Source: Halanaerobiales bacterium
GTDB taxonomy: Bacteria; Bacillota_F; Halanaerobiia; DY22613
Direction of reading: 5' to 3'
Length of the DNA: 16,373 bases
Assembly (NCBI GenBank): GCA_023128035.1
Contig: JAGMES010000095.1
Location: 1 to 16,373, forward strand
Made by a program: the position numbers and the translations under genes. Of this stretch, positions 189-16,373 are shown in pieces; the stretch's first letter is position 1, and every line of letters starts with the position of its first letter. The notes below the pieces were generated by a model, which searched no databases, was not told where the DNA came from, and saw only the letters and a program-made list of their open reading frames with translations.

Positions 189-1991
189 ATGAGACGAGAG
201 AACTTACGAAATATTGCTATTATAGCACACGTTGATCATGGAAAGACGACATTAGTAGATGGTATGTTTCGCCAAAGTGGTGTTTTTCGTGAAAATCAAA
301 GAGTGCAAGAGCGAGTGATGGATTCGAATGATCTAGAGCGAGAACGTGGAATAACTATTTTATCTAAGAATACTGGAATTCAATATGGTGATGTTAAGAT
401 AAATATTGTAGATACTCCTGGACATGCTGATTTTGGTGGAGAGGTTGAACGGGTGTTGACAATGGTTGACGGCGTTTTGCTTTTAATTGATGCTTTTGAG
501 GGTCCGATGCCTCAGACACGGTTTGTTTTGAAAAAAGCTTTAGAATTAAAATTAAAGCCAGTTATAGTTGTGAATAAAATGGATAGACCAGATGCACGTC
601 CTCTTGAGGTCCTGGATTTGACTTATGATCTGTTTATAGATTTGGGCGCAGATGAAGAACAACTTGATTTTCCTGTAGTTTATGCTTCTGCTAAAAATAG
701 TACTTCATCATTAGATATAGATGAAATAGGGACAAATCTAGAACCTCTCTTTAATGCAATTTTGGAGCATATACCTGCTCCTACTTTGGAAAATGATGGT
801 CCTTTGCAAATGATCGTTTCTACTATTGATTACGATGATTATGTTGGAAGAATTGCTATAGGTAGAATAAATCGTGGTAGTATGACTGTTAATCAACAGG
901 TCGCCTTGTGTAAGACAACTGGTGAGAAATTTCCAGGTAAGGTGGTACGGATATATAATTATCATGGTCTAAAAAGGCAGGAACAACAAGAGGCCTCATG
1001 GGGTGAAATTGTAGCAGTGGTCGGTATTGATGGTGTAAATATTGGAGATACGATTACAGCTATTGAATGCCCTGAACCATTGCCTTTTATTAAAATTGAT
1101 GAGCCAACATTATCCATGGAATTTAGCGTTAATACTAGTCCTTTTTCAGGCCAAGAAGGGGACTATGTCACTTCTAGACAATTAAGAGCTCGTCTGACGC
1201 GTGAATTGGAAAGTAACGTAGCATTACGTGTAGAAGAGACAGATAGCCCAGATACTTTTAGAATTTCTGGTCGTGGTGAGTTGCATCTTTCTATTTTAAT
1301 CGAAACCATGCGCCGTGAGGGATATGAAATCCAAGTTTCCAAGCCAAAAGTAATATTTAAGGTTATTGATGGTAAGAAACAAGAACCTTATGAGTTGGCT
1401 ACCATTGACATTCCTGAAGAGTTTATTGGTGTAGTTATGGAGAAGATGGGTATTAGAAAAGGTGAATTGGTTAATATGAAATCTCAGAATCAGGGATATC
1501 TAAGATTAGAGTTTTTAATTCCAGCTCGTGGTTTGATTGGATATCGTTCAGAATTTTTGACTGATACAAAAGGAAATGGAATTTTAAATCATACTCATCA
1601 TAGTTATGGTCAGATTAAAGGAGAAATGCTTGGTAGAAATCGTGGTTCTTTGGTTGCCTTAGAAATAGGAGAAGCCACAACTTACGGGATTTTTAACGCT
1701 CAAGGTCGAGGTGTAATCTTTGTAAAACCTGGTGTTAAGATTTATGAAGGAATGGTTATTGGAGAAAACACACGTGATTCTGATATGGTGGTCAATGTTT
1801 GTAAGAAAAAGAAGTTAGATAATATGCGAGCATCAGGCTCAGATGATAGTCTTGTCCTTTCTCCTCCACGCGAGATGAGTTTAGAGCAAGCACTTAATTT
1901 TATTGCAGATGATGAGTTGCTGGAAATTACCCCGAAGAATTTCAGGGTTCGTAAACGTTTATTAAGTGAGAAGGCAAGACGGCGGAGTTAA
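189..1991 (+). CDS. typA: Ribosome-associated translational GTPase TypA/BipA
   Basis: This is a translation-factor GTPase of the EF-G/LepA superfamily. The family binds 70S ribosomes and acts in stress or cold adaptation and in 50S subunit assembly. The 600-residue length is normal for TypA. The G-domain motifs are intact: P-loop AHVDHGKT at 13-20, switch I RERGITI at 51-57, G3 DTPGHADF at 75-82, G4 NKMDRPD at 129-135 and G5 SAKN at 167-170. The rest fits the beta-barrel, EF-G-like alpha/beta and TypA-specific C-terminal domains, including the typical [10 protein letters not shown] and [12 protein letters not shown] segments and a basic tail ending in RRRS. The ATG at 189 follows GAGGT at 176-180. 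The gene has its own promoter and a terminator just downstream, so it is probably monocistronic. Nothing is unusual about it. Confidence 0.97.
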
Positions 1992-2013
1992 GGAATTGAA
2001 TATGAATGATATG

Positions 2014-2049
2014 AAAGTCAGAATGCTGAAAAGTGTTTTGACTTTTTTT
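2014..2049 (+). terminator. Rho-independent terminator of typA
   Basis: AAAGTCA at 2014-2020 pairs with TGACTTT at 2039-2045. The stem continues inward to C2026:G2033 with three G-U pairs, closing on a loop of TGAAAA. A run of seven T (2043-2049) forms the end of the stem and the U-tract. It begins 23 bases after the typA stop. The stem is A/U-rich, so strength is uncertain. Confidence 0.6.
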
Positions 2050-2106
2050 GTAAAAATTTTGTTTTAATGAAGGTAAATCTGATTTTTTGTTGAAAACAAA
2101 TAGAAA

Positions 2107-2223
2107 TCTAAAACTTTCAAAGTATTTTGGTTCAGTTTTTTCTCCTTCACAGACTATTAAAATTCGCGGTCTGCGATCTCTAGTAGCAACCTTTCTTTTT
2201 CTAAATAAATCGTCACTCCCCAT
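2107..2223 (-). pseudogene. RloB-like protein, 3'-truncated remnant
   Basis: The minus-strand frame begins with ATG at 2223-2221 and reads MGSDDLFRKRK, then PRILIVCEGEKTEPKYFESF. This is recognisable as the N-terminus of the RloB family, whose hallmark is the ILIVCEGEKTEPxYF strand-loop. RloB proteins are around 200 residues, but here recognisable sequence stops after about residue 39. The frame then runs through AT-rich sequence and antisense into the 3' end of typA before stopping at 1942. Only about 115 bases separate the last recognisable codon from typA, so the missing part has no room to exist in another frame. The start overlaps the ATPase stop by 11 bases, the translational coupling expected of an intact rloA-rloB operon. 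The product is presumably non-functional. The truncation is seen; its mechanism is inferred to be a deletion at the typA side. Confidence 0.75.
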
Positions 2224-3508
2224 TCTGTTCACTTGCCTCAATCTCATCTAAAACGAAATCAAAGTTCCCAATAAAAGGAATTGCGCCATATTTGCCCAAA
2301 AGATAGTCTTTGTTAAAAGTAGCATCCTTCCTGATCTTATATTCAACCAATGAATATAAATCTGTTGCTCCAAAATGATCTTTTTCAGTAAACCAGATTT
2401 GGTCTCTCCGAAAAACTTTGTTACTAAGGATATTAGTATCATGTGTAGTAAAAATTAATTGAGCATTTTTTGAGTTAGATTTTGACTGAAATAATTTTAT
2501 AATAAAAAAAATCAACAATGGATGTAAACTTGAATCAAGTTCATCAATTAACAAAACTTTTCCGGAAAGCAAAGTGTCCAAAATCGGGCCTAAAAGAGAA
2601 TATAAAATTTTTGTACCTTTTGATTCATTTACATCTAAATCAAATTTTTCATGTGAGACAAATTCGCCATATTCATTATATTTTTTGTAAAAGAAATTTA
2701 CGTCTGTAACATTGGTTGGAAATTCAAAATGAACTTTTTTGTTATTTTCTTTAAACAATTCAAAAGTATTAACAACTTCTGAAGGTATATCATTGTCTAC
2801 TATTTCAACATTGTCAATTCTAAGATCCGCTATTTGTAAACATTGTAAAATGGTTTTTTTCATTTTTTCATTTGATTTAAGTAATAGATTTGTTATACGC
2901 TGATTATTTTTATCATTATTATTAATAATATTAAACCTATTAAACCAGTTTAAAATTTTATTGGAAATTTCTCCATTAAACTGAGCTACAACTGATATAA
3001 AGAGTGCATTGTTTCTAGTTTTTTCTTCTAAGCCAATACTTTCTTTAAAATGTTTAGTAATACTGTACTCTGTTTTTTCTCTTTCAAAAAGCTTTACTTC
3101 TCTTATATTAGGTGTATAGAATAACCATTCACTTACGACTTCAGACGTAGTTACTTGAAAGCCATATCTATATTTAATATTTTTATAAATAAAGATAATT
3201 TCAAAAGAACTTGGTTCATTAACAGTTGAAGTATTTAATCTAAATGGTTCAACCCCGATAGATTCTTCTGCCATCATGTTTTTTGCAGAGTTTTTAATGA
3301 GGTCTTTCATAGCAAACATTGCTGCAAATAAATTGCTTTTTCCACTGGCATTAGCTCCATAAAGCACACTACTTTTAAGTAAACTAATTTTATCATTAAA
3401 TTTAAAAGTGTGTGTATCAGTATATTCTTTTTTATTTGATGCAATCATGCTAAAAGTGACTGGGTCTTTAAAAGATAAGAAATTGGCAACACTAAATTCT
3501 AATAACAT
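2213..3508 (-). CDS. RloA-like AAA ATPase (AAA_15/OLD-like family)
   Basis: This is an ABC/SMC-like ATPase of the type found beside RloB in accessory loci, often with restriction or abortive-infection genes. All nucleotide-binding elements are visible in the 431 residues: N-terminal strand FSVANFLSFKD, Walker A GANASGKSN at 51-59, a degenerate signature ESKGTKIL at 295-302, Walker B VLLIDELDSSLHP at 318-330 and the H-loop TTHDTNILS at 354-362. The following RRDQIWFTEKD segment and KDYLLGKYGAIPFIG are typical of this family. The ATG at 3508 follows a perfect AGGAGGTGA 5 bases away. The frame looks intact, but its partner rloB, which overlaps its stop, is truncated. Whether the ATPase still has a role alone is unknown. 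The gene is Asn/Lys-rich and AT-rich compared with the flanking housekeeping genes, consistent with transfer, though this was not quantified. Confidence 0.85.
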   Translation of the reverse strand: MLLEFSVANFLSFKDPVTFSMIASNKKEYTDTHTFKFNDKISLLKSSVLYGANASGKSNLFAAMFAMKDLIKNSAKNMMAEESIGVEPFRLNTSTVNEPSSFEIIFIYKNIKYRYGFQVTTSEVVSEWLFYTPNIREVKLFEREKTEYSITKHFKESIGLEEKTRNNALFISVVAQFNGEISNKILNWFNRFNIINNNDKNNQRITNLLLKSNEKMKKTILQCLQIADLRIDNVEIVDNDIPSEVVNTFELFKENNKKVHFEFPTNVTDVNFFYKKYNEYGEFVSHEKFDLDVNESKGTKILYSLLGPILDTLLSGKVLLIDELDSSLHPLLIFFIIKLFQSKSNSKNAQLIFTTHDTNILSNKVFRRDQIWFTEKDHFGATDLYSLVEYKIRKDATFNKDYLLGKYGAIPFIGNFDFVLDEIEASEQNGE

Positions 3509-6203: not shown

Positions 6204-6238
6204 AAAAAGGAACCCCTTGTCACAAGGGGTTCCTTTTT
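6204..6238. terminator. Bidirectional terminator between gltX and the DUF3343 gene
   Basis: A 16-bp perfect stem runs from AAAAAGG (from 6204) to CCTTTTT (to 6238), with a GGAACCCC core and a TCA loop. A-runs and T-runs on opposite sides give a U-tract to both transcripts. It begins 6 bases after the gltX stop and overlaps the stop codon of the convergent minus-strand gene at 6237-6239. Confidence 0.92.
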
Positions 6239-6506
6239 AAAATCCAAAAAACTTATCTAAAAGACTAGTCTTCTCTCGAGGTTTAATCAGATGTATTCCC
6301 TCAATCTCTACATTTGCCTCTTCCAAAATCAACTTAAGCTCTAGTTTCATCTCTGGGTCAATTCTAATCACTTCACCACAGTTAGAGGTAAGTTCCCTTG
6401 GAATAGGAGCTAAAGGGATTTTATAATTTTTTTCTTTAAGAGCCTTTTCTGCTTTTAGAGCATGATAGGTTGAGGGAAAAGTAAATACTAGATATTCTTT
6501 TGACAT
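6237..6506 (-). CDS. DUF3343 putative Se/S carrier-like protein
   Basis: This is a small soluble protein of 89 residues. The family is found beside selenium and sulfur mobilisation genes and is proposed to carry activated Se or S on a conserved cysteine; that role is not well proven experimentally. The N-terminus YLVFTFPSTYHALKAEKAL matches the family opening. The core APIPRELTSNCG around the single Cys43 matches the usual PxPRxxSSxCG motif. The start is ATG at 6506, 12 bases after the yedE stop, and its AGGAG overlaps the yedE TAG, so the two genes are very probably translated from one mRNA. Pairing with yedE supports a role in selenium handling. Confidence 0.85.
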   Translation of the reverse strand: MSKEYLVFTFPSTYHALKAEKALKEKNYKIPLAPIPRELTSNCGEVIRIDPEMKLELKLILEEANVEIEGIHLIKPREKTSLLDKFFGF

Positions 6507-6518
6507 TTATTTTTTCTC

Positions 6519-7616
6519 CTAAACAGTTTTAGCAACTGAAGAATTTTTTTGATTTTTTCTAGTCCGATATGCTTCTGTAAAGAAATATCCTGTTATAAGC
6601 ACTGTAACTAAACCGATGAGCACAGCTATTTGACCGTTTGAAGTAACACCTTTACCACTACCAGCAAGACCAAAATTGTGAGAGAATCCTGCTCCTAAAA
6701 TCATACCAATAACTACAATTGCATTATCTAAATTACCATCAGCAGATCTCATTAATTGACGTAATGGACAACCACCTGCTAAAATTGCACAGATACCTAC
6801 TAAAGCCATGCCTAAGAATGACCAGAGATGATCACTATGAGCTCCAGGTTGACCAGTAAATCCTAATTTAAATTGACCGAATAGTATATTAAAGATTAGA
6901 GCAGATGCAAAGAGAGCAATATAACCCTGAAAGAGTTGAGATCCTTTGCCTAGCATCATATCACGATATCCTCCAGCAAAACAGAAACCTGAACGTTGAG
7001 CTAAAAAGCCTACAATGAGACCAGCAATAAGGGTGATTACGATTGGTGTAGTCATAGCTCCAGGGCCAGCTTGACTAAAAGCGATAAAAGCAGGTCTGAT
7101 CAGAAGAAATACTAATAAGCCTACCATTAACGATGGCAAGATCCACCCACTTACCTGAGTTTCAGAAGGAGTTGGTTTACCCAGAGTAAAACCTTTTTTA
7201 AGATAGAAGGTTCCAATAGCTGCACCAAAAATAAAACCTAAAAGACCAGCGATAGCATTTAAATCACCACCAGCAAGACGTAAAACAGCACGGAGAGGAC
7301 AACCTAAAAATACTAAAGCACCAATCATCATAAATACACCATAAAGAAGACGAAGCATACTATCAGAACTACCACGAGTTTTGAATTCTTTAAATTTTAA
7401 CACAGCAAAAAATGCGCCCAAAACCAGACCGATAATTTCAGGTCGGATATATTGAACAGGGCCAGCAGTGTGTAACTTGACTGCACCCGCTATATCCCTA
7501 AGAAAACAGGCAATACAAAAGCCCATGTTTCCTGGGTTTCCAAATTTGACCAATAACGCTCCTAAAAATCCGATGATGACACCTGTTAAGATAATTAACT
7601 TATGACGCTTATCCAT
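6519..7616 (-). CDS. yedE: YedE family putative selenium transporter
   Basis: This multi-spanning membrane protein of the YeeE/YedE (DUF395) superfamily is thought to import a selenium compound for SelD-dependent selenium use; the selenium role is genomic inference for the family. The two pseudo-symmetric halves are clear. The first has NMGFCIACFLRD at 30-41 and GCPLR at 105-109; the second has GFCFAGGYRD at 210-219 and GGCPLR at 281-286. These are the family's cysteine sites. I start at ATG 7616 (365 residues) because AGAGGAGGTT lies about 10 bases upstream. An in-frame TTG at 7646 would translate that Shine-Dalgarno as EEV and has no good site of its own. The gene heads a two-gene operon with the DUF3343 gene and diverges from argS. 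Confidence 0.88.
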   Translation of the reverse strand: MDKRHKLIILTGVIIGFLGALLVKFGNPGNMGFCIACFLRDIAGAVKLHTAGPVQYIRPEIIGLVLGAFFAVLKFKEFKTRGSSDSMLRLLYGVFMMIGALVFLGCPLRAVLRLAGGDLNAIAGLLGFIFGAAIGTFYLKKGFTLGKPTPSETQVSGWILPSLMVGLLVFLLIRPAFIAFSQAGPGAMTTPIVITLIAGLIVGFLAQRSGFCFAGGYRDMMLGKGSQLFQGYIALFASALIFNILFGQFKLGFTGQPGAHSDHLWSFLGMALVGICAILAGGCPLRQLMRSADGNLDNAIVVIGMILGAGFSHNFGLAGSGKGVTSNGQIAVLIGLVTVLITGYFFTEAYRTRKNQKNSSVAKTV

Positions 7617-7752
7617 TTTTGAAACAACCTCCTCTAAAATGTTCAATATTTATTTCCCTTCAAAATATATATTCTAAATCAATTATAAAATTCCTTTATA
7701 ATAAGAATAATTTTTTTTAATACTCTAATGAAAGAGAAAAATTGATGCAAGA

Positions 7753-7818
7753 TTATCATTATTTTCCCTTAAGGACTTGTAAAATGTTCTTAAATTAGTT
7801 ACACTTAAATAATGATAA
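7753..7818. repeat. Nested inverted repeats in the yedE-argS intergenic region
   Basis: The outer arms TTATCATTATTT (7753-7764) and AAATAATGATAA (7807-7818) are a perfect 12-base inverted repeat. Inside them TTAAGGAC (7769-7776) pairs with GTTCTTAA (7786-7793) with one G-U pair. A possible argS promoter, TTGTAA at 7777-7782 and TACACT at 7800-7805 with 17-base spacing, lies within the structure. It could be an operator shared by the divergent genes, or an RNA leader if argS starts further upstream. A chance match in AT-rich DNA is possible. Confidence 0.4.
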
Positions 7819-7856
7819 ATTTTTGTTTGCTATAGAAGTATAGGAGGGATAGATAC

Positions 7857-9560
7857 ATGCAAGACTTCAAAAGAGAAATGGCCTTATTATTGGCAGAAAA
7901 ATTACCTGAAGGATTAGAACTGGATTTGGAGAAGTTGATTGAGATTCCACCAAATCCTGAGATGGGGGATTATGCATTCCCATGTTTTCAGTTAGCGAAA
8001 CACTTACGGAAGAGCCCTGTTAAGATTGCGGAAGAGTTAGTTGCAAATCTTGAAGCAAAGGGCCTTGTATCTGAAGTTCGTCAACTTCAGGGATATGTTA
8101 ACTTTTTTGTTAACAAAGAAGTATTGGTGCGTGATGTCTTAGAACAAGTTTTTGCTCAAACAGAAAGTTATGGTGTACAAAATATTGGAGCCAATCAGAC
8201 AGTTGTAATTGACTTTTCATCACCTAATATCGCTAAACCTTTCAATATTGGTCATTTGCGTTCCACAGTAATTGGTGGAGCATTGAAAAATATTTTTAAA
8301 TATCTTGGATATAATGTACAGGGAATCAATTTCTTAGGAGATTGGGGAACCCAGTTTGGTAAAGTAATCTGCGCATACAAGCTTTGGAGTGATGAGATTG
8401 ATCTTGATAAGGATCCAATTAAAGAGATTTTAAAGCTATATGTTAAGTTCCATGAAGAGGCGGAAAAAGATCCAACTTTAGATGATAAGGCTAGAGAATG
8501 GTTTAAACGTTTGGAAAAAGATGATCCTGACGCCAAGAAATTATGGAAATATTTCCGGCAGATTACTATAGAAGATTTAATTGAAGTTTATGAGAGAATG
8601 GGTATTGAGTTTGATGAATATTCTGGAGAGAGTTTTTACTTTAAAAAAGCTGAGGAAGTTGCCAATCGTTTAGAAGAGATGGGCTTATTAGAGGAAAGTG
8701 AAGGGGCGATGATTGTTGATTTAAGTGAATATGATATGCCACCATTTTTAGCGAAGAAAAGTGATGGTACAACCCTTTATGCATCTCGAGATTTAGCGGC
8801 GGCTATTGACCGCTACGAAAGATTTGACTTTGCGAAATCTCTTTATGTTGTTGGTCAAGAACAATCATTGCATTTGAAACAAGTATTTAAAGTTTTAGAA
8901 TTAATGGGTTATGACTGGTTTGAACGTTGTACCCATATACCTTTTGGTCTCTATCTCTTCAGTGGTGAAAAGATGTCAACCCGGAAGGGAAGAGTAATCT
9001 TTTTAGAAGATGTACTTAATGATGCTGTTAAAGGGGTAAGAAAGGTTATTGAAGAGAAGAATCCTGGCTTACAAGATAAGGATGAGGTCGCCGAAATGGT
9101 TGGAGTTGGTGCTGTACTTTTCGCTGACTTAAAAAATACTCGGATTAAGGATGTACAATTTGATTATGCTAAAATTCTCTCCTTTGAAGGTGAAACAGGA
9201 CCTTATCTGCAATATACCCATGCTCGAATCTCTAGTCTTTTGAGAAAAGGTGCAGAGATCGGCGCTTTGGATAAGATTGATTATGGATTATTGAAAGAAC
9301 CAGCAGAATTGGCGGCTATTAAATCAGTTGGTCAGTTCCCTGCTAAAATACAGGAAGCGGCCGATAGATTAGAACCATCTGTGATTGCAAAATACTTAAT
9401 CAGTTTAGCTGCTGATTTTAATACATTCTATAGCGCCCATCGAGTGATTACAGATGATATTGAGTTAAGTAAAGCTAGATTGGCACTGGCTTTAGCGGTG
9501 AAGATAACTTTAAGAAATGGACTCAGATTGTTAGGATTGAACGCTCCAAGTAAGATGTAG
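7857..9560 (+). CDS. argS: Arginine--tRNA ligase
   Basis: This class I aminoacyl-tRNA synthetase charges tRNA-Arg. The 567-residue length fits the bacterial family. The N-terminal Add1-like tRNA-binding domain covers about 1-100. The ATP-binding signature SSPNIAKPFNIGHLRSTVIG contains the HIGH-type NIGH at 130-133. An intact KMSTRKG loop is at 372-378; many ArgRS proteins have lost the canonical KMSK, so this is a version that keeps it. The C-terminal DALR-type anticodon domain includes FNTFYSAHRVI and ends LGLNAPSKM, the usual tail. The ATG is preceded by AGGAGGG with 8-base spacing. It is followed by a good terminator and appears monocistronic. No T-box antiterminator sequence was found upstream. 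Confidence 0.97.
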   Translation: MQDFKREMALLLAEKLPEGLELDLEKLIEIPPNPEMGDYAFPCFQLAKHLRKSPVKIAEELVANLEAKGLVSEVRQLQGYVNFFVNKEVLVRDVLEQVFAQTESYGVQNIGANQTVVIDFSSPNIAKPFNIGHLRSTVIGGALKNIFKYLGYNVQGINFLGDWGTQFGKVICAYKLWSDEIDLDKDPIKEILKLYVKFHEEAEKDPTLDDKAREWFKRLEKDDPDAKKLWKYFRQITIEDLIEVYERMGIEFDEYSGESFYFKKAEEVANRLEEMGLLEESEGAMIVDLSEYDMPPFLAKKSDGTTLYASRDLAAAIDRYERFDFAKSLYVVGQEQSLHLKQVFKVLELMGYDWFERCTHIPFGLYLFSGEKMSTRKGRVIFLEDVLNDAVKGVRKVIEEKNPGLQDKDEVAEMVGVGAVLFADLKNTRIKDVQFDYAKILSFEGETGPYLQYTHARISSLLRKGAEIGALDKIDYGLLKEPAELAAIKSVGQFPAKIQEAADRLEPSVIAKYLISLAADFNTFYSAHRVITDDIELSKARLALALAVKITLRNGLRLLGLNAPSKM

Positions 9561-9616: not shown

Positions 9617-9949
9617 AAAATTGTATAAGTTTTGTAGAACGGATCTGTGATTGCGAATTAGTTTAAGATTGCTTGATATAAAAGCTCTGTAAAAATGTAA
9701 AATATAATATATTCTTTATTATAGGCTATTGGGCTAATGCTCAATAGCCTATTTTTTTAATAAAAAATTATCTGAGTAATAATTATGTTATAGCAACATA
9801 CAATTAAGACGGGAGATCAATAAAAAATAATAAATTTTTACTTAGTTAATAAAATGTAATACAAAAATAATAAATTAAGAATAATAAGAAGAAAAAACCA
9901 TATATATCATTAGAAACATACAAGATTTAAGAAATTGTGGGGTGTCTTT
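9617..9949. other. Non-coding AT-rich interval before the fimbrial-type cluster
   Basis: No supported gene lies between the argS terminator and the first gene of the secreted cluster. The interval contains a second terminator-like hairpin at 9721-9758 and two exact copies of AAAAATAATAAAT (9823-9835 and 9863-9875) exactly 40 bases apart. No convincing -35/-10 pair was found upstream of the cluster, so its promoter is either weak, activator-dependent or of another sigma class. Confidence 0.5.
9721..9758 (+). terminator. Orphan Rho-independent terminator
   Basis: ATAGGCTATTGGGC (9721-9734) pairs with GCTCAATAGCCTAT (9739-9752) through 14 bp with one G-U pair and a TAAT loop, followed by a T-tract to 9758. 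It is as strong as the argS terminator about 110 bases upstream, and no open frame lies between them. Confidence 0.8.
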
Positions 9950-10828
9950 ATGAAAAAAAGGTGTTTGATCATGTTTGTGTTCTTACTTGGATTTTTATTA
10001 GTGATACCAGGTGAAATAATATCATCAAATCATGATTGTGGAACTTTGCATTTGAACTTTGGGAAAATAACTGCTCCAAGTGAAAAAGAAGGGCAGATTG
10101 TATTGTATTTTCCGCTTTACGGAAATTCAGTAGAATCTCTAGAAATCTGGGGGGATGAAGATTTTTGCTGTCAGGGGCAAAAAAGTACTATTCCAATAAG
10201 TCGAATGAAGTTTGAAATTAATAATCAAATCCGGGAAATCAGCTCTGATATAGCAAAAATGAATTTGAATAAGGCGAAAAATAAGATTGAGAACCAACAA
10301 TTAGCTTTACCATTTCTCATTAAAATACATCCAGGAGATTTGCCTGGCATTTATGAAACGACATTGCATATTCGAGAAGTACATAATGGGAATAATGCAT
10401 CTGGTCATACTTTTGATGTTAAAGTAACTTTAGAGGTTGGTTCGTGGATCAATTTAAGTTATGAGCCAGATATTCTTAAAGTGGATTTAGCTGATTTTGA
10501 AATGAAAAATGTTAAGAATAGTAAACCTCTTATTATTAAAATAGCTTCTAATACGAAATGGAAACTTTATGGTAAGTTGTATGATGCCAACTTAGAAGGA
10601 CTAACAAATTTTAAAATTGATCCATCATTTGGTAATGATTATATAGTAATCAACCCTTGTGGGGTTTCTCTATCGAGTGAACTAGTACATCTAGCTGATG
10701 GATTTAGCACTGGAGGAATCGAATTAGATATAAAAAGCAGTCTTAAAATTATAGATTTTACAAAGTTAAAATCAGGTGGCTTTGATTTTAATATATATTT
10801 TAATGCTATTGAGGATTTTGACTACTAA
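9950..10828 (+). CDS. Exported two-domain protein, candidate minor subunit/adhesin
   Basis: This 292-residue protein is not a family I recognise. It opens with MKKR and a hydrophobic stretch CLIMFVFLLGFLLVIPG, a clear Sec signal. The mature part is rich in alternating beta-strand pattern and seems to hold two modules, about 30-160 and 165-292. The first ends in PFLIKIHPGDLPGIYETTL, like the last strands of an Ig-like fimbrial or adhesin fold. After the signal it has four cysteines (C30, C73, C74, C237), suggesting disulfides outside the cytoplasm. I use ATG 9950, preceded by GGGGTG with 5-base spacing; an in-frame TTG at 9935 is upstream. It is first in a same-strand run with a pilin-like protein, chaperone and usher, so a tip or minor subunit role is inferred from position only. 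Confidence 0.6.
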   Translation: MKKRCLIMFVFLLGFLLVIPGEIISSNHDCGTLHLNFGKITAPSEKEGQIVLYFPLYGNSVESLEIWGDEDFCCQGQKSTIPISRMKFEINNQIREISSDIAKMNLNKAKNKIENQQLALPFLIKIHPGDLPGIYETTLHIREVHNGNNASGHTFDVKVTLEVGSWINLSYEPDILKVDLADFEMKNVKNSKPLIIKIASNTKWKLYGKLYDANLEGLTNFKIDPSFGNDYIVINPCGVSLSSELVHLADGFSTGGIELDIKSSLKIIDFTKLKSGGFDFNIYFNAIEDFDY

Positions 10829-10841
10829 TTTGAATACATAT

Positions 10842-10865
10842 CCGGTGGTTAGGCGCGACTATCGG
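10842..10865 (+). other. Hairpin upstream of the pilin-like gene
   Basis: CCGGTGGT (10842-10849) pairs with ACTATCGG (10858-10865) with two G-U pairs around TAGGCGCG. The surrounding bases are unusually GC-rich for this window. No T-tract follows, so it is not a terminator. It could protect a processed pilin mRNA 5' end or be part of a regulatory leader. Confidence 0.35.
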
Positions 10866-10905
10866 GCTGTAGATAAAGTATATAACTACAAGGAGGAGAA
10901 ATGTA

Positions 10906-11730
10906 ATGAAGAAAATTTTGATTATGTTATTCTTAATTGCTTCTATGGTATTTTCTGGGGCGGTATTTGCTGATGATTTTGCTCCATTTGAAGACTGGTT
11001 CCTAGGTTATGAAGATCTCCAAGATGATGGAATTGAAGTTGATTTTGTCCCTGGGGAATACATTATTGACGGTATAAATAGAAGTGAATTTTATCTTGAT
11101 GAAAACAAACTTCCGATTAAAGATGAGTTAATTCCAGAACGGCAAGATGTAAGTGTTAATGTTGAGGTAAAAGCTTATATACCTTGCTATCTCTGGATGG
11201 AGGTTACAGGTAATGGTGGGCAAACTACAATTGAAAGTTTTGGCCCTGGTGAAGGTGGTATAGGTTCAGCAAGTGGAATGGATACACCATACATGTATTT
11301 TGATAATGAGATGGGTGGATTTGTGAATGAAGACTGGTATTCAATTGGTTATGGTAGAAATGCTGAAATAAGACCATTTGATCCAAGTGACTCAACTGAT
11401 CCAGCAAGATATATTCAAGCATGTGATATATTCAGAGTTAATCTTTGGTCAAATGATGCTTATACATATCAAGTGGAATCAGAGCCTCTTATAGATGTAG
11501 ATGTTCCAGAAGGAGTTTATTATTTAGATTTACAGATGAGAACAGCTTTAAATGGAACAACCTGGGAGCCTATTACACACTCTTTTGCTGAGTTCTCAGA
11601 AGTCAATTTTGGTGATTACGATCCTTTAATATCTTTGGAAGCATATCATCAGTTTAGAGTACCTTATGATATAAATACTCCTCATGGAAAATATGAAGGA
11701 ACTGTTATATTTAGAGCATATACAATCTAG
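10906..11730 (+). CDS. Exported acidic pilin-like protein, candidate major subunit
   Basis: This 274-residue protein has a textbook Sec signal, MKKILIMLFLIASMVFSGAVFA, with cleavage predicted after residue 22. The mature protein is strongly acidic. It starts with a roughly 60-residue acidic, aromatic segment, then a beta-rich domain from VNVEVKAYIPCYLW (about 84) to the C-terminus GKYEGTVIFRAYTI. That C-terminus has the G-x-Y-x-G-x-V pattern seen at the end of many fimbrial subunits. C94 and C173 could form a disulfide. The start follows AAGGAGGAG by 7 bases, and a minimal ATG-TAA sits between that site and the true ATG. The gene lies directly before a strong hairpin and the chaperone gene, the usual place for a major subunit. 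The family is not recognised; the role is inferred from context. Confidence 0.6.
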   Translation: MKKILIMLFLIASMVFSGAVFADDFAPFEDWFLGYEDLQDDGIEVDFVPGEYIIDGINRSEFYLDENKLPIKDELIPERQDVSVNVEVKAYIPCYLWMEVTGNGGQTTIESFGPGEGGIGSASGMDTPYMYFDNEMGGFVNEDWYSIGYGRNAEIRPFDPSDSTDPARYIQACDIFRVNLWSNDAYTYQVESEPLIDVDVPEGVYYLDLQMRTALNGTTWEPITHSFAEFSEVNFGDYDPLISLEAYHQFRVPYDINTPHGKYEGTVIFRAYTI

Positions 11731-11750
11731 TGTACTTCTGAAATAAATAT

Positions 11751-11784
11751 TAAAGGGCTGGTTAACGCGCCACCAGCCCTTTAT
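11751..11784 (+). terminator. Intra-cluster hairpin after the pilin-like gene
   Basis: TAAAGGGCTGGT (11751-11762) and ACCAGCCCTTTA (11772-11783) form a perfect 12-bp stem with a 9-base loop. It starts 20 bases after the pilin-like stop and ends about 20 bases before the chaperone Shine-Dalgarno. The T-tract is short (TTTATCTTAT), so partial termination or 3'-end protection is more likely than full termination. Confidence 0.7.
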
Positions 11785-11814
11785 CTTATAATAATCATAA
11801 ATTAAGGAGGAAAA

Positions 11815-12624
11815 ATGATGCGTTACTGCACTAAAATAAAACTTTCGTTTCTCTTTCTAACATTTTGGATTCTTATTTGTTCAAATTTAGTAAATGCTTC
11901 AACTTACATTGAACCCAGTAGATTTATCCTTCACTTAGAGCCTGGGGCAAAGATGAGTGACTCCATTAAAGTTACTAATATGAGTAATAATGAGATAGAG
12001 GTTAGAGCAGTATTATATGATTGGAAATTAGATGAAAAAGATGAACTAGTTACGTATAGTAGTAATACACGTCAGGATACTTTATATGGTTTAATTAAGT
12101 TTAATCCCCGTCAATTTAAACTTGCGCCTGGAGAAACTCAAATTGTTCGATTTACTGTAAAGGCTCCTCAAGAAGGTTTTGATATTGAAAGAAAAGGAAT
12201 AGTATTTTTTGAACAGGAGAGTGTTGTTGAACAGGACGGAGTTGGGGTCAATGTTCTTTCTCAAATTGGAACAACTATTTATACAATGCCAAGTGCTGCA
12301 AAATCTTCATTTTGCCTGGCAAAAGCAGAAGTCTATATACCAGAAGAAGGGATTTCTCTTGGAGTACTACTTATAGGAAATGAAGGGAATGTGCATGTAC
12401 GGTATCATGTAAAGTATAAAATCAGTAATGAAGATGGGAAAATATTAGATGAGGGAACTGTGGCAGAAAAAGTTATTTTGCCAGAAGATCGTCGATTAGT
12501 AACATTTCCAATTACACCTAATCTTCCAATAGGTAGATATAATCTATTACTTGAGATTGCATTTGATGGTACCAATAAGAAGCTTGTCCATACTGTACCT
12601 TTTGATGTCAAAGGTCAGGAGTGA
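11815..12624 (+). CDS. PapD-like periplasmic chaperone of the fimbrial-type cluster
   Basis: This predicted exported chaperone has 269 residues. A signal peptide with core LSFLFLTFWILICSNLVNA precedes two Ig-like beta domains. Domain 1 (about 30-160) contains IEPSRFILHLEPGAKMSDSI, then the most telling block FNPRQFKLAPGETQIVRFTV and IERKGIVFF, the pattern of PapD-type N-terminal domains with a conserved Arg near the first strand (R36). Domain 2 (about 168-265) holds GNEGNVHVRYHVKY and LPIGRYNLLLEIAFDG. In chaperone-usher systems such a protein folds subunits by donor-strand complementation and delivers them to the usher, which is the next gene 5 bases on. AAGGAGG lies 4 bases before ATG 11815 and 7 before ATG 11818, so the second ATG may be the real start. 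A DUF916/WxL-associated protein has a similar fold and is the main alternative, but the adjacent usher-like gene argues against it. Confidence 0.7.
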   Translation: MMRYCTKIKLSFLFLTFWILICSNLVNASTYIEPSRFILHLEPGAKMSDSIKVTNMSNNEIEVRAVLYDWKLDEKDELVTYSSNTRQDTLYGLIKFNPRQFKLAPGETQIVRFTVKAPQEGFDIERKGIVFFEQESVVEQDGVGVNVLSQIGTTIYTMPSAAKSSFCLAKAEVYIPEEGISLGVLLIGNEGNVHVRYHVKYKISNEDGKILDEGTVAEKVILPEDRRLVTFPITPNLPIGRYNLLLEIAFDGTNKKLVHTVPFDVKGQE

Positions 12625-12629
12625 TAAAT

Positions 12630-15600
12630 ATGCTCACTTTAATGAAAACCAAAATTAATAAAATCATATTACTATTTTTAATAATGATAATGGTTTCTAT
12701 AAACTATCAAATATCTTTAGCGTTTGATTTAGAAACAAGCATTATATCTCTTGCAATTAGCTCAAATGAAAAATTAATAAAAACAGACCCTTTTTTTGAG
12801 TTATTGGACATGGGAGACTACTTACTTGTACCTTTAAATGCTTTAACTGAATATCTTGACTTAAGTGTAATTTATCAAAGAGAAACTAATATTGTTAGTG
12901 TAACACATGCAGATACTCAAAGAAATGTTGATATAGATATAGAAAATGGAATTTATTTAGATCATGTTGAATGGGCTAACGAACCACCAGTAGTTTTGGA
13001 AGGAGAATTCTATGTAACGACTTCTTTAATAGAGTATCTAGCTGATGTAAGATTTGAGTGGAATTCAAAATATCAGGAATTAACTATGATTGGATCATGG
13101 TTTTCTGACGAAGAAGAGGCTCAATCTTTAAATCAATCCTCTAATCTTGATACTGGAAGTCTAAAATCAGAGACAGTTTTAACTCCTACTGTTGTTGGTA
13201 AGGCTTTTTCCTTGGGATCTATTCAATATAAAATGGTTTGGGAAAATCGTAAAAGTGATTTAGAATCATGGCAGAAAAATGGTAATCTAGTTTTAAATAT
13301 ACATGGGAGAGCAGGAGACTGGGAGCTTTCGTTAGGTGGAGAAACTGATTTAACTGCTGATGATCAGGAGATAATATTATCCTACTTAAATGCTGAATAT
13401 AACAAAAATAATCATCTAATTATTTTAGGAGATAAAAAGATTGATTTTGATAAAACTGTGGGATCACAATCTTTACGTGGTTTATATTATAGTTTTCCGG
13501 ATAAGCGTTTTAGTAAATTGGTCGCTTATACATCAATTTCGGGAGCAGTGGAAATAGGTGATAAGGTATCTTTATATGTGAATGAGAAGTTAAGAGAAGA
13601 AATAAGTGCTACAGAAGAGTTTTATACATTTACTCATGTTCCACTTAATATTAAAAGAATAAACTTAATTCGAGTTACTATAGAAAAAAATACTGGTGAA
13701 AAGTATGATATTATAAAAAAAATAGCTGCAAGCGCCAGAATATTAGAAGTAGGTGTAAAGGAGGTAACAGCAGCTTTAGGGGCTTATCGTGATCCTAACA
13801 CAGATAATTACGAAGGTCAGATGGTAGGTGTGAAAACTGATTTAGCTCTAACAGAATCAATTTCAATGAATTTAGTAACAGCATGTAAACAATCATATGA
13901 GAATAAAGAGTCTTTAATATATGGTTCGGATCTTGGATTAGCCTTCAGACTAGGGGAAAAAACAATTATCACTCTGGATTGGGTAATTGGTGGAGAGAGT
14001 GATAATCTATTTCATGGAGTGAATTCAACATTACTGTATTGTCTTGAAAATGGATATATTGAATCTTTAGTTTTTTATGTACCAGAAGATGTATCAAAAG
14101 GTGTTCAAATACCTGTTGGTCAAGGTGTTGGGTTAGTTGGGGTTTGGGATTTGCCAAAAAATTGGGAGATAAAAATTCAAGGTGATTTATGGAGACCGAT
14201 TTTAGGAATGGAACTTTTATCTTTGAATAGGGGACAATTAGCTTTAACCAAAAGATGGGGTGAATATTTAGATAATTCGGTCTCTCTGGTAGGAAAAATA
14301 GAAGAAAAGGAAATTCTTACAGAAAATTTTATTGAGGAAAACATAGAGGAAATTGAGAAAATTATTGAGCTCGTCAAAGAAACAGGAGTTATATATGAAC
14401 ATAGACATAAAAGAGATGAATTTTTTGAAAAAGGAAAAGTATCATTTGTAATAAGTGGTATTACAAATGATAATCAGTCTTATCAATTTAAAATTATCGA
14501 TATAGAGCAAGATATTTCTAAACTTTTTTCCAAATATTTTCTAGCTTCTGCATCAATAGGAGCTTCCAGTAGATGGTTTAATAATAATTTTCTAGAAGGA
14601 AATTTTGCCATAACATCTCAAGCTAAATGGGGAATAAAAAATATCTGGGTTTCTGGAATTGGAACTATAAAAGGGATAAGTAATCAATATTCCGATTATA
14701 AGTATGATTTAGAAGAGATTGATCTTGGTTTCATAGTTCAACATTATTTTAATGAAAATAATATTGTGTACTTAAATTTCGATCATGTATGGAAGAACTA
14801 TGCAGACTTTAACTACACAAAAGGTGAATTTGGAACGATTCATAGATGGGAAGATGGAAAAGGAAAATTATCATGCAATATAGGTTATGTTTCATCTATA
14901 GATGAAAGAAAATATCCTCAATGGTCTGCTAAAATAGATATCGAAAGAATATTATCTAGAGATATGAAGATTAATGTGACAGCTGAACAGTTATATGATA
15001 CGCTATGGGATAGTGATCCTGAACATGTTTTTTTAGTAACTTTATCACATGCTTTAGGGTTTACTTCTGAAACTAATCAAGGGCAACAATATTCAGGTAA
15101 CGAACATGTTTCTTTTATCGGTGGTATAGTTTATTTAGATGCAAATGGGAATGGTATAATGGATAATGATGAAAAGAGACTTTCTGGTATAAAGATGGCT
15201 CTTGATGGTAGAAGAACTGAGACTAATCAACTGGGAGAATTTAGATTTGATTATGTTGAACCTGGTATATATAGAGTTGGTTTTGATTTAAAATCTCTGG
15301 ATGCAGATTATACTCCAGTTTTAGATGAAGAGATTGTTAAAATACGAGAGAATGAAAATATATTCTTGCATTATGGTCTTACAATAAATGGATCTATCTC
15401 TGGGAAAGTATTTATTGATAAAAATGCTAATGGAAAGATGGATGATGATGAAGAGGCTTTACAATGGGTTGGTATTTGTCTGAATGATAACGAAAAGAGC
15501 GTATATACAGGAAAAGATGGAACTTTTTATTTGGAAAATTTACCATTAGGCACGCATGTAATAAAAATTCTTAGAGAGACGTTGCCTTTCAATATGGTAG

Positions 15601-15695
15601 TAAGTCATGGCGAATTATTTGAATTTCAGATTGCTGAAGAATTTCTGGATATAGAAGGTTTACTAATACCAGCAGTTTATAAGTTTGTAGAATAA
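12630..15695 (+). CDS. Usher-like outer-membrane protein with C-terminal SdrD-B-like domains
   Basis: This 1021-residue protein is the probable outer-membrane assembly platform of the cluster. A signal peptide (to about 31, ending ISLA) is followed by a domain at about 55-157. It has two stalk/copper-amine-oxidase-N-like repeats, LLVPLNALTEYLDLSVIYQ and FYVTTSLIEYLADVRFEW. Amphipathic strands begin near 195. At 305-370 a plug-like beta domain (VSLYVNEKLREEI, FTHVPLNIKRINLIRVTI) precedes LGAYRDP and a long barrel-like region to about 815. An acidic helical insertion, EKEILTENFIEENIEEIEK, lies near 559-577. Two C-terminal modules start GGIVYLDANGNGIMDNDE (831) and GKVFIDKNANGKMDDDE (925), SdrD-B/Cna-B-like with DxNxNGxxDxxE calcium-type loops. 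I start at ATG 12630, 8 bases after AGGAG; an in-frame GTG at 12621 lies in that site. The usher call is from architecture and neighbours, not close sequence identity. Confidence 0.65.
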   Translation: MLTLMKTKINKIILLFLIMIMVSINYQISLAFDLETSIISLAISSNEKLIKTDPFFELLDMGDYLLVPLNALTEYLDLSVIYQRETNIVSVTHADTQRNVDIDIENGIYLDHVEWANEPPVVLEGEFYVTTSLIEYLADVRFEWNSKYQELTMIGSWFSDEEEAQSLNQSSNLDTGSLKSETVLTPTVVGKAFSLGSIQYKMVWENRKSDLESWQKNGNLVLNIHGRAGDWELSLGGETDLTADDQEIILSYLNAEYNKNNHLIILGDKKIDFDKTVGSQSLRGLYYSFPDKRFSKLVAYTSISGAVEIGDKVSLYVNEKLREEISATEEFYTFTHVPLNIKRINLIRVTIEKNTGEKYDIIKKIAASARILEVGVKEVTAALGAYRDPNTDNYEGQMVGVKTDLALTESISMNLVTACKQSYENKESLIYGSDLGLAFRLGEKTIITLDWVIGGESDNLFHGVNSTLLYCLENGYIESLVFYVPEDVSKGVQIPVGQGVGLVGVWDLPKNWEIKIQGDLWRPILGMELLSLNRGQLALTKRWGEYLDNSVSLVGKIEEKEILTENFIEENIEEIEKIIELVKETGVIYEHRHKRDEFFEKGKVSFVISGITNDNQSYQFKIIDIEQDISKLFSKYFLASASIGASSRWFNNNFLEGNFAITSQAKWGIKNIWVSGIGTIKGISNQYSDYKYDLEEIDLGFIVQHYFNENNIVYLNFDHVWKNYADFNYTKGEFGTIHRWEDGKGKLSCNIGYVSSIDERKYPQWSAKIDIERILSRDMKINVTAEQLYDTLWDSDPEHVFLVTLSHALGFTSETNQGQQYSGNEHVSFIGGIVYLDANGNGIMDNDEKRLSGIKMALDGRRTETNQLGEFRFDYVEPGIYRVGFDLKSLDADYTPVLDEEIVKIRENENIFLHYGLTINGSISGKVFIDKNANGKMDDDEEALQWVGICLNDNEKSVYTGKDGTFYLENLPLGTHVIKILRETLPFNMVVSHGELFEFQIAEEFLDIEGLLIPAVYKFVE

Positions 15696-15714
15696 TTGAT
15701 ATGTTAACTTTTTG

Positions 15715-15753
15715 AAAACCCTGAAAAGTATGTACAGGGTTTTTTATTTTTTT
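15715..15753 (+). terminator. Terminator after the usher-like gene
   Basis: AAAACCCTG (15715-15723) and CAGGGTTTT (15735-15743) form a perfect 9-bp stem with an 11-base loop, followed by a T-rich tract to 15753. It lies 19 bases after the usher-like stop and before the next gene's AGGAGG, so that gene is either read through at a lower level or has its own promoter. Confidence 0.75.
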
Positions 15754-15806
15754 GAGATATTTTTTTAGAAATTGGAGATGATATTAAAGCGAAAGGAGGA
15801 AAAAAG

Positions 15807-16373
15807 ATGAAAAAATATATTATCTTTTTAACATTGCTGTTACTAATATTAGTAAAAATTCCTGTTATAGCAGCCGAAACGAAAGTTGGGTTTGGCGGTG
15901 ATTGGGAAATAGGTTCTCAACTTAAAGTTAATATGTTGACAGGGGTATTTGTAGATGAAAAAAAGCAATATGATTATTGGGTTAGAGGAAATTTATTATA
16001 TGTCCCTATAGATCAAAATGGAATACATGGCTTTTTAACCTTAGAAAAGCGAGGTTCATTTTCTGACATATGCTTGGGATATATTAATCCTTTTAACGAA
16101 AAATTGGATTTGGAAGTTGGTGTAAATTGGACTAAAAAAGAGAATAAAACAACTGAAAAGTTTATAGTTAATGGAAATTGGAACACAACATATGGAACTG
16201 TATTTTTAGGCGGAAAGTTGGGTTTAAATGGAGAAGAAATAACTCTGAAGTATTTTAGACCATATGAAAAGCATCTTCATAATAAGCTAATATTAAAAGG
16301 AAATGTGGGTTTACAACATTTGTGGGAAAGAGAAGGTAGAGAAATAAGTATTCCATTGAGAGCGAAAGGGATT
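15807..16373 (+). CDS. Exported beta-strand-rich protein, probable outer-membrane barrel (partial)
   Basis: An ATG at 15807, 6 bases after AAAGGAGG, opens a frame that continues past the window edge; 189 residues are visible. The N-terminus MKKYIIFLTLLLLILVKIPV, then IAAE, is a Sec signal with likely cleavage at or just after IAA. The mature part alternates polar and hydrophobic residues in strands broken by Gly/Asn turns, as in VGFGGDWEIGSQLKVNM, WVRGNLLYVPI, LGYINPFNEKLDLEVGVNW and TVFLGGKLGLNG. This is the look of an outer-membrane beta-barrel. I do not recognise the family. Being next to the usher-like gene suggests a companion outer-membrane protein, but a terminator separates them. The C-terminus, which would show whether it ends in an aromatic barrel signal, is outside the window. 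Confidence 0.7.
   Translation, partial: MKKYIIFLTLLLLILVKIPVIAAETKVGFGGDWEIGSQLKVNMLTGVFVDEKKQYDYWVRGNLLYVPIDQNGIHGFLTLEKRGSFSDICLGYINPFNEKLDLEVGVNWTKKENKTTEKFIVNGNWNTTYGTVFLGGKLGLNGEEITLKYFRPYEKHLHNKLILKGNVGLQHLWEREGREISIPLRAKGI

Follow-up and report, generated by a model that had tools for sequence, protein, structure and literature searches.

In classical pili of the type 1 and P kind, the chaperone and usher genes lie side by side (FimC/FimD, PapD/PapC), and the ushers described so far have ~24 barrel strands and ~830 amino acids (PMC4827864). Archaic systems are given for Proteobacteria, Cyanobacteria and Deinococcus-Thermus in a passage that does not list Firmicutes (PMC4654587), and ushers are given also for spirochaetes in a passage from which Firmicutes are likewise absent (PMC4827864). 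Outer-membrane systems of Halanaerobiales and Negativicutes were surveyed in 2016 in a paper whose main text contains neither 'usher' nor 'fimbri' (PMC5007114). Here we analyzed a 16,373-nucleotide contig of a Halanaerobiales bacterium (JAGMES010000095.1, assembly GCA_023128035.1; this whole stretch is called the window below). Four consecutive genes on its plus strand (9950-15695) code for two exported subunit candidates (A and B), a putative periplasmic chaperone (C) and a putative outer-membrane usher (U), and this cassette very probably represents a chaperone-usher system of diderm Firmicutes, from a deep branch not recognised before. A literature search on chaperone-usher systems and donor strands in Halanaerobiales, diderm Firmicutes, Bipolaricaulota and WxL proteins, which left subscription journals mostly uncovered, found among the papers listed neither this system nor the link to WxLIP proteins discussed below.

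The initial annotation had described five same-strand open reading frames (ORFs) with export signals as a divergent chaperone-usher cluster in a Firmicutes-like, apparently diderm genome, with two subunits of no recognised family and with selenium genes in its flanks. The five ORFs are present, and all have a signal-peptide-like start, as judged by eye. As a five-gene unit the cluster was borne out in part: A-B-C-U is conserved as a cassette, while the fifth gene has no relative in any of the 29 related loci in a profile search. The rest of that description agrees with our results. As in classical pili, the genes of chaperone and usher adjoin; the chaperone ORF overlaps U by 4 bases if U begins at its possible GTG start. 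No usher, pilin or chaperone name was returned by an NCBIfam scan of the window proteins, nor did Pfam and NCBIfam searches yield any family naming a pilus among the cassette matches. We favor a divergent chaperone-usher system because of the usher fold and plug of the U model, the usher profile, the pilin-like model of B, the chaperone profile, a Halanaerobiales-like neighboring gene and the occurrence of Omp85 in related genomes.

For U, an AlphaFold model (pLDDT 84, pTM 0.59) was compared with known structures by Foldseek/VIA. In the Foldseek list, ranks 1-18 were all FimD/PapC, with a best E-value of 3.7e-27 versus 4.2e-9 for the next family, and the alignment with FimD extends to model residue 1014 and so takes in both C-terminal domains, with the N-terminal domain lying outside it. 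The model has a plug-like domain after barrel strand 6, which is also where the plug of FimD sits. U is thus predicted to be an outer-membrane usher with a plug-like and two C-terminal domains, as in FimD and PapC, and not a barrel of a non-usher family. At the sequence level, a profile of 30 ushers (A7; 28 rows used by hhalign) matched the K-12 ushers with an E-value of 4e-6, above the controls, and the two align in register through the plug. Here and below, hhalign E-values refer to single comparisons, and the limited set of controls comprised profiles with shuffled columns or in reversed order and a small number of Ig families. The smaller profile of 19 sequences (A2) did not exceed the controls against the K-12 ushers. 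Neither A2 nor A7 found an usher in a sequence search of the PDB; their matches on the C-terminal domains were SdrD, UafA, NOMO2 and EMC7, and matches to a V-ATPase subunit and Vipp1 were taken as chance. The usher search had returned 20 protein rows, of which 19 were used, the window's U included and one partial match omitted.

U could instead be a large outer-membrane barrel without kinship to ushers, its likeness to them being general to large barrels, with C and B coming from some other Ig surface system; we consider this highly improbable. The large rmsd values and loose TM scores of the structure matches would suit such a protein, as would the appearance of LptD, TonB-dependent transporters and others next in the list; however, the ushers precede all of these, the sequence register is kept through the plug, and relatives of U show matches to the usher model PF00577 below its threshold (E-value 3.5e-4 in one of 19 family members and 0.0016 in one further relative). 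U itself has no PF00577 match above the cut-off, indicating that it is distant from the known ushers behind that model, and none of 398 Bacillota genomes exceeded the PF00577 cut-off. With the usher profile, 48 of 299 sampled Bacillota genomes gave matches at E ≤ 0.001, most rows covering SdrD_B or Cu_amine_oxidN1 parts only, and 12 of the 299 did so at E ≤ 1e-40.

In several respects U differs from the known ushers. Its family members have ~1000 amino acids, compared with 826-878 in the seven K-12 ushers, and its model contains 6 + 24 = 30 predicted barrel strands instead of 24, a predicted count from one model set (pTM 0.59), with strands assigned by DSSP and presumed to lie in the barrel. 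The two barrel segments are steady in length over the 30 A7 ushers (88-100 and 393-439 residues), which fits with extra hairpins after the plug. In Pfam, unlike the classical ushers, U is matched above the cut-off by Cu_amine_oxidN1 (PF07833) at its N-terminal domain and by SdrD_B (PF17210) at its C-terminal domains, and each of these models matched 19/19 family members at E-values up to 0.1. Since, in the profile alignment, the final portion of the Cu_amine_oxidN1 domain falls opposite the end of the N-terminal domain of FimD, this Pfam label may merely be the nearest available name.

Neither A nor B of the window gave a Pfam match, and the relatives of A show scattered weak Pfam matches only. 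The model of B is pilin-like, a feature shared with classical pili. CfaE gives its best structural rows, with CsuA/B and CfaB following lower down, a likeness to the archaic and alternative systems (Csu, Ecp, CFA/I). In this model, residues 23-90 form a largely unstructured N-terminal extension and residues 91-274 an Ig-like domain ending at its last strand. A probably consists of two Ig-like domains, judging by eye from its sequence, and its C-terminal half aligns with B at B's own C-terminus (hhalign E-value 3e-4, obtained without shuffle control). It is quite improbable that A and B leave through U as monomers or short oligomers, in a coat or by a two-partner-like secretion, instead of being polymerised into a long fibre. 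Some chaperone-usher systems do make thin or capsule-like coats, and helical or fibre evidence is absent from the computational results, but the long extension ahead of the Ig domain of B and its end at the last strand would correspond to the anatomy of a polymerising subunit.

The putative chaperone C was compared with nine K-12 chaperones and matched them over both domains (score 59.9, E-value 3.9e-8, 192 columns), while 60 shuffles reached at most 19.4 and reversed chaperones 21.1. The chaperone search had returned 21 protein rows, of which 20, including the window's C, were used after a 158-aa fragment was omitted. These 20 share an invariant proline (Pro98), presumably the counterpart, by its match to the EcpB numbering, of the one proline described as the sole invariant residue of the chaperone superfamily (PMC4654587). 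Classical chaperones anchor the C-terminus of the subunit by an Arg/Lys pair. The position aligned with this arginine is Arg in 17/20 members, Lys in two and Val in one, whereas the classical lysine has no clear counterpart in the alignment of C with the K-12 chaperones. Archaic and alternative chaperones have a super-conserved Arg89 (CsuC, EcpB) together with a Tyr and an Arg in domain 2. Where this Arg89 aligns, the C family has an invariant Gly128 preceded by Arg or Lys at position 127 in 20/20, both register and numbering of this column being uncertain; Arg196 in the second domain is Arg in 19/20 and Lys in 1/20, likewise with an uncertain register. EcpB was the only chaperone among the PDB matches of the C profile (E-value 0.028); the top match, a viral L-protein methyltransferase domain (E-value 0.0032), was taken as chance. 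Based on these alignments, C appears to be a two-domain, Ig-like chaperone of the PapD type.

By profile score, C is nearest to the WxLIP proteins (DUF916 + DUF3324), whose two Ig-like domains align with both domains of C. These proteins are described as having a C-terminal membrane helix and a WxL partner, almost entirely in Lactobacillales and Bacillales, and the second domain is mentioned as homologous to pilin proteins of bacteria (PMC10599100). In an AlphaFold2 prediction from the same source, a gap in WxL is filled by a parallel WxLIP strand, which completes the WxL sandwich (Hassan et al., 2023, PMC10599100). This parallels the action of a chaperone on a pilin, and we read it as donor-strand complementation in all but name; the words 'chaperone', 'donor strand', 'pilus' and 'fimbria' do not occur in its main text (PMC10599100). 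The first domain of C matches PF06030 (WxLIP_PGBD, formerly DUF916) with 28.8 bits against a cut-off of 27.3, and 17/20 family members match it at E-values up to 0.1. DUF3324 gave no Pfam match among the 20, though the second domain of C aligns with the second WxLIP domain in the profile comparison. Against seven WxLIP proteins from two Bacillota genomes, one of these proteins (L060) starting late, at its first Met, C scored 99.7 (E-value 1.2e-13, 230 columns; 40 shuffles ≤ 22.0). A wider test was performed with 47 rows, 27 from the loci and the window and 20 from A1, in overlapping sets, leaving out three of 30 chaperones (L023 cut, L028 broken, L029 distant). The C family scored 98.5 against WxLIP, 62.0 against all K-12 chaperones, 48.9 against the Ecp and 46.7 against the classical chaperones, as compared with 43.2 for a NEW3-type Ig decoy and 26.4 and 34.5 for its own subunits. 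Classical and Ecp chaperones of K-12 scored only 29.6 against each other, though their relation is accepted, and WxLIP reached 30.5 against all K-12 chaperones and 21.4 against the decoy. By sequence profile, C therefore stands between WxLIP and the PapD-like chaperones and nearest to WxLIP, and its match to the K-12 chaperones lies above shuffled and reversed profiles and moderately above the Ig decoy.

We accordingly considered kinship of the cassette with the WxL/WxLIP surface complex, in a diderm form where C would be a permanent surface scaffold for A and B rather than a recycling chaperone, and U their export pore without a fibre. The match of C to WxLIP over both domains, which is better than that to the E. 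coli chaperones, would favor this. However, no hydrophobic helix could be read at the C-terminus of C; it also differs from WxLIP in having an usher as neighbor and no WxL partner in the cluster. WxL gave no Pfam match in 24 B and 22 A proteins, and profile comparison of A and B with eight WxL proteins gave nothing above Ig decoys. Two candidate links were rejected. A carries a conserved N..W-x-L stretch reminiscent of the WxL motif, but its profile aligned just 7 signal-peptide columns with the eight proteins; B scored 30.2 over 21 columns (shuffles ≤ 22.0), equal to its score of 30.3 against the chaperone family. Moreover, the plug-like and C-terminal domains of U resemble those of polymerising ushers. 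We consider a fibre-less scaffold of this kind quite improbable.

The initial annotation had counted placement of the chaperone in the DUF916/WxL families as evidence against its reading, and this placement did occur, through the PF06030 match of the first domain and the stronger match of the whole protein to WxLIP than to the E. coli chaperones. Weighing against the relation to WxLIP, the NEW3 decoy scored 71.9 against the Bipolaricaulota chaperones described below, so that Ig profiles can score high through fold kinship alone, and PF06030 matched nothing in a genome scan of the carriers G001, G008 and G030. The lack of a profile link between WxL and A or B weakens the wider WxL/WxLIP claim. 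The DUF916/WxLIP match does not overturn the chaperone-usher assignment, because C has no membrane helix, A and B contain no WxL, and U is usher-like with a plug; instead, it links the WxLIP and chaperone-usher families. The profile scores, together with the insertion of a WxLIP strand into WxL, suggest common descent of WxLIP and C. We propose only tentatively, as a combined claim that may well fail and whose odds are lowered by the decoy score and the silence of PF06030 in the carriers, that WxLIP of monoderm Firmicutes and C derive from one ancestral chaperone and that the diderm ushers have a 30-strand pore. Under this proposal, loss of the outer membrane in Firmicutes would have entailed loss of the usher, and the donor strand of a chaperone now anchored by a helix would have stayed in a single subunit for good, so that the WxL/WxLIP complex would be a stranded chaperone-subunit pair. 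PF06030 was also above its cut-off in the control genome of Thermotoga maritima, whose cells have an outer envelope; this may be relevant to how old the chaperone/WxLIP family is.

A genome scan with the chaperone profile identified 29 loci in 23 assemblies. By title, 11/29 belong to Halanaerobiales (Orenia metallireducens, Halanaerobium salsuginis, eight Halobacteroidaceae and one Halanaerobiales bacterium) and 15/29 to unplaced Bacillota/Firmicutes, and Hydrogenispora, a Clostridia bacterium and an Acetothermia bacterium contribute one each. The initial annotation had proposed that the same gene order be sought in other genomes; profile searches combined with a position table found A-B-C-U in order in 23 of 30 loci, the window included. 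Such recurrence indicates that the cassette is more than chance. Within these 23, A is split into two ORFs and B shortened in L025, an additional B is present in L024, and a contig end truncates some of the ushers. In five of the 30 (L003, L011, L019, L022, L023) the locus start falls inside the cassette. L028 (9249-14472) is a broken cassette without a B match in the profile search, its chaperone ORF fused with gene A, its usher in pieces and a 401-aa ORF between them; the Acetothermia locus (L029) gave no A or B match, and its usher matched only in part. With these two left out, the spacing from C to U ranges from -56 to +331 bases in 28 loci.

Some loci carry additional genes. A tandem second usher follows the first in L018, L021, L022 and L023; three of these second ushers are complete, and they end behind the first C-terminal domain and lack the second. 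In L017 a 1011-aa protein with InlB-type B and RCC1 repeats (6300-9335) directly follows the usher and is a candidate passenger or adhesin. A BTAD-type (SARP-like) regulator lies upstream of the cassette in L001 (6682-7908, E-value 6.1e-18), and ORFs of similar appearance, judged by eye, are found upstream in L016, L018, L021 and L028.

The host lineage agrees with a diderm envelope. The best named relative of the ArgS encoded beside the cassette is that of Anoxybacter fermentans, a member of the Halanaerobiales (76% identity), and another relative reaches 86%. Omp85 was found in 11/11 locus-bearing genomes tested and LpxC in 10/11, the exception being the Acetothermia genome; from these relatives we infer that the host of the window is diderm as well.

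Computation supports the gene order, the usher-like and pilin-like models and the profile relations; by analogy with known chaperone-usher systems, export, donor-strand exchange, the parts played by A and B and the fibre may be pictured as follows. All four proteins would leave the cytoplasm via Sec. C would bind A and B in the periplasm, supplying the last strand that their Ig domains would lack and keeping them competent for assembly. U, as a plugged outer-membrane barrel, would receive the chaperone-subunit complexes at its N-terminal domain, put the N-terminal extension of the following B in place of the chaperone strand, and thread the chain outward. A would probably enter the fibre first, as its tip, and B would form the shaft.

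Chaperone-like matches were also observed in 65 of 100 genomes of Bipolaricaulota/Acetothermia (the G011 phylum), and several of these loci also encode exported proteins whose final strand is of the pilin-like G-x-Y kind. We examined seven longer loci (L053-L059), the chaperone of L054 being placed from genome-scan coordinates. In 6/7, a protein of 947-1023 aa with SdrD_B domains is encoded on the strand of the chaperone gene, adjoining it or within ~1.3 kb. Its identification as the same usher was rejected, the match to the usher profile being the SdrD_B part only. For its first part, the comparison with the usher profile gave 25.1 over 65 columns that were out of register (40 shuffles ≤ 23.3), and that with the K-12 ushers gave 19.6 (shuffles ≤ 25.6); in the one large protein scanned, Pfam labels the start as a NEW3-type Ig domain. 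These chaperone-like loci possibly represent another unrecognised export system.

The features of the cassette are listed in Table 1. The hairpin between argS and gene A suggests, on the strength of its 14-pair stem, that the cassette is transcribed as a separate unit; the number of terminator-like sites in the window is not significant (3 versus a mean of 2.1 in shuffles). The fifth gene matches a treponemal outer-membrane barrel model weakly (E-value 0.032, 14.2 bits against a cut-off of 135). Among the flanking genes, argS corresponds to TIGR00456, and the selenium genes are a YedE-type putative selenium transporter (TIGR04112, E-value 2e-140) and a Se/S carrier protein (PF11823), which adjoin each other on the minus strand (6237-7646) between gltX and argS. 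An AbiL-like pair lies at 1942-3508, also on the minus strand, with an AAA ATPase (AbiLi model, E-value 1.1e-97) followed by an RloB/AbiLii-like ORF; the latter has just 101 aa, matches only the start of the models, overlaps the end of typA and appears truncated. An Rfam scan of the window gave nothing at gathering thresholds.

Table 1. Positions of the A-B-C-U cassette, its predicted domains and adjoining features in the window.
Feature	Position	Strand	ORF in window list	Description
Terminator-like hairpin	9721-9752	+		14 pairs + T run, between argS and gene A; consensus scan
Gene A	9950-10828	+	9935/9950-10828	Exported protein, 292 aa; candidate tip/adhesin subunit
Gene B	10906-11730	+	10906-11730	Exported protein, 274 aa; candidate major pilin
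B, Ig-like (pilin) domain	11176-11727	+		Residues 91-274
Gene C	11815-12624	+	11815-12624	Candidate periplasmic chaperone, two Ig-like domains, 269 aa
Gene U	12630-15695	+	12621-15695	Candidate outer-membrane usher, 1021 aa from ATG; GTG at 12621 as alternative start
U, N-terminal domain	12813-13082	+		Residues 62-151; PF07833 Cu_amine_oxidN1 match
U, barrel strands 1-6	13206-13496	+		Residues 193-289; DSSP on AF2 model
U, plug-like domain	13524-13727	+		Residues 299-366; inserted after barrel strand 6
U, remaining barrel	13758-15062	+		Residues 377-811; 24 strands in model
U, two SdrD_B-like C-terminal domains	15075-15680	+		Residues ~816-905 and 911-1017; at the place of usher CTD1/CTD2
Fifth gene	15807-16373	+	15807-window edge	Exported, outer-membrane barrel candidate; open at window edge, outside conserved cassette

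Our results would add the diderm Firmicutes to the bacteria with candidate chaperone-usher fibres, by a route hidden from the Pfam usher model, and the cultured carriers Orenia metallireducens and Halanaerobium salsuginis gain a candidate surface-fibre system. If an usher was already present in the diderm ancestor of the Firmicutes, the pathway would be older than its proteobacterial showcase. If the link to WxLIP is true, a surface system found in lactobacilli and enterococci, so far poorly understood, would be a remnant of outer-membrane loss, and the question of the transition from diderm to monoderm cells would become testable on one protein family.

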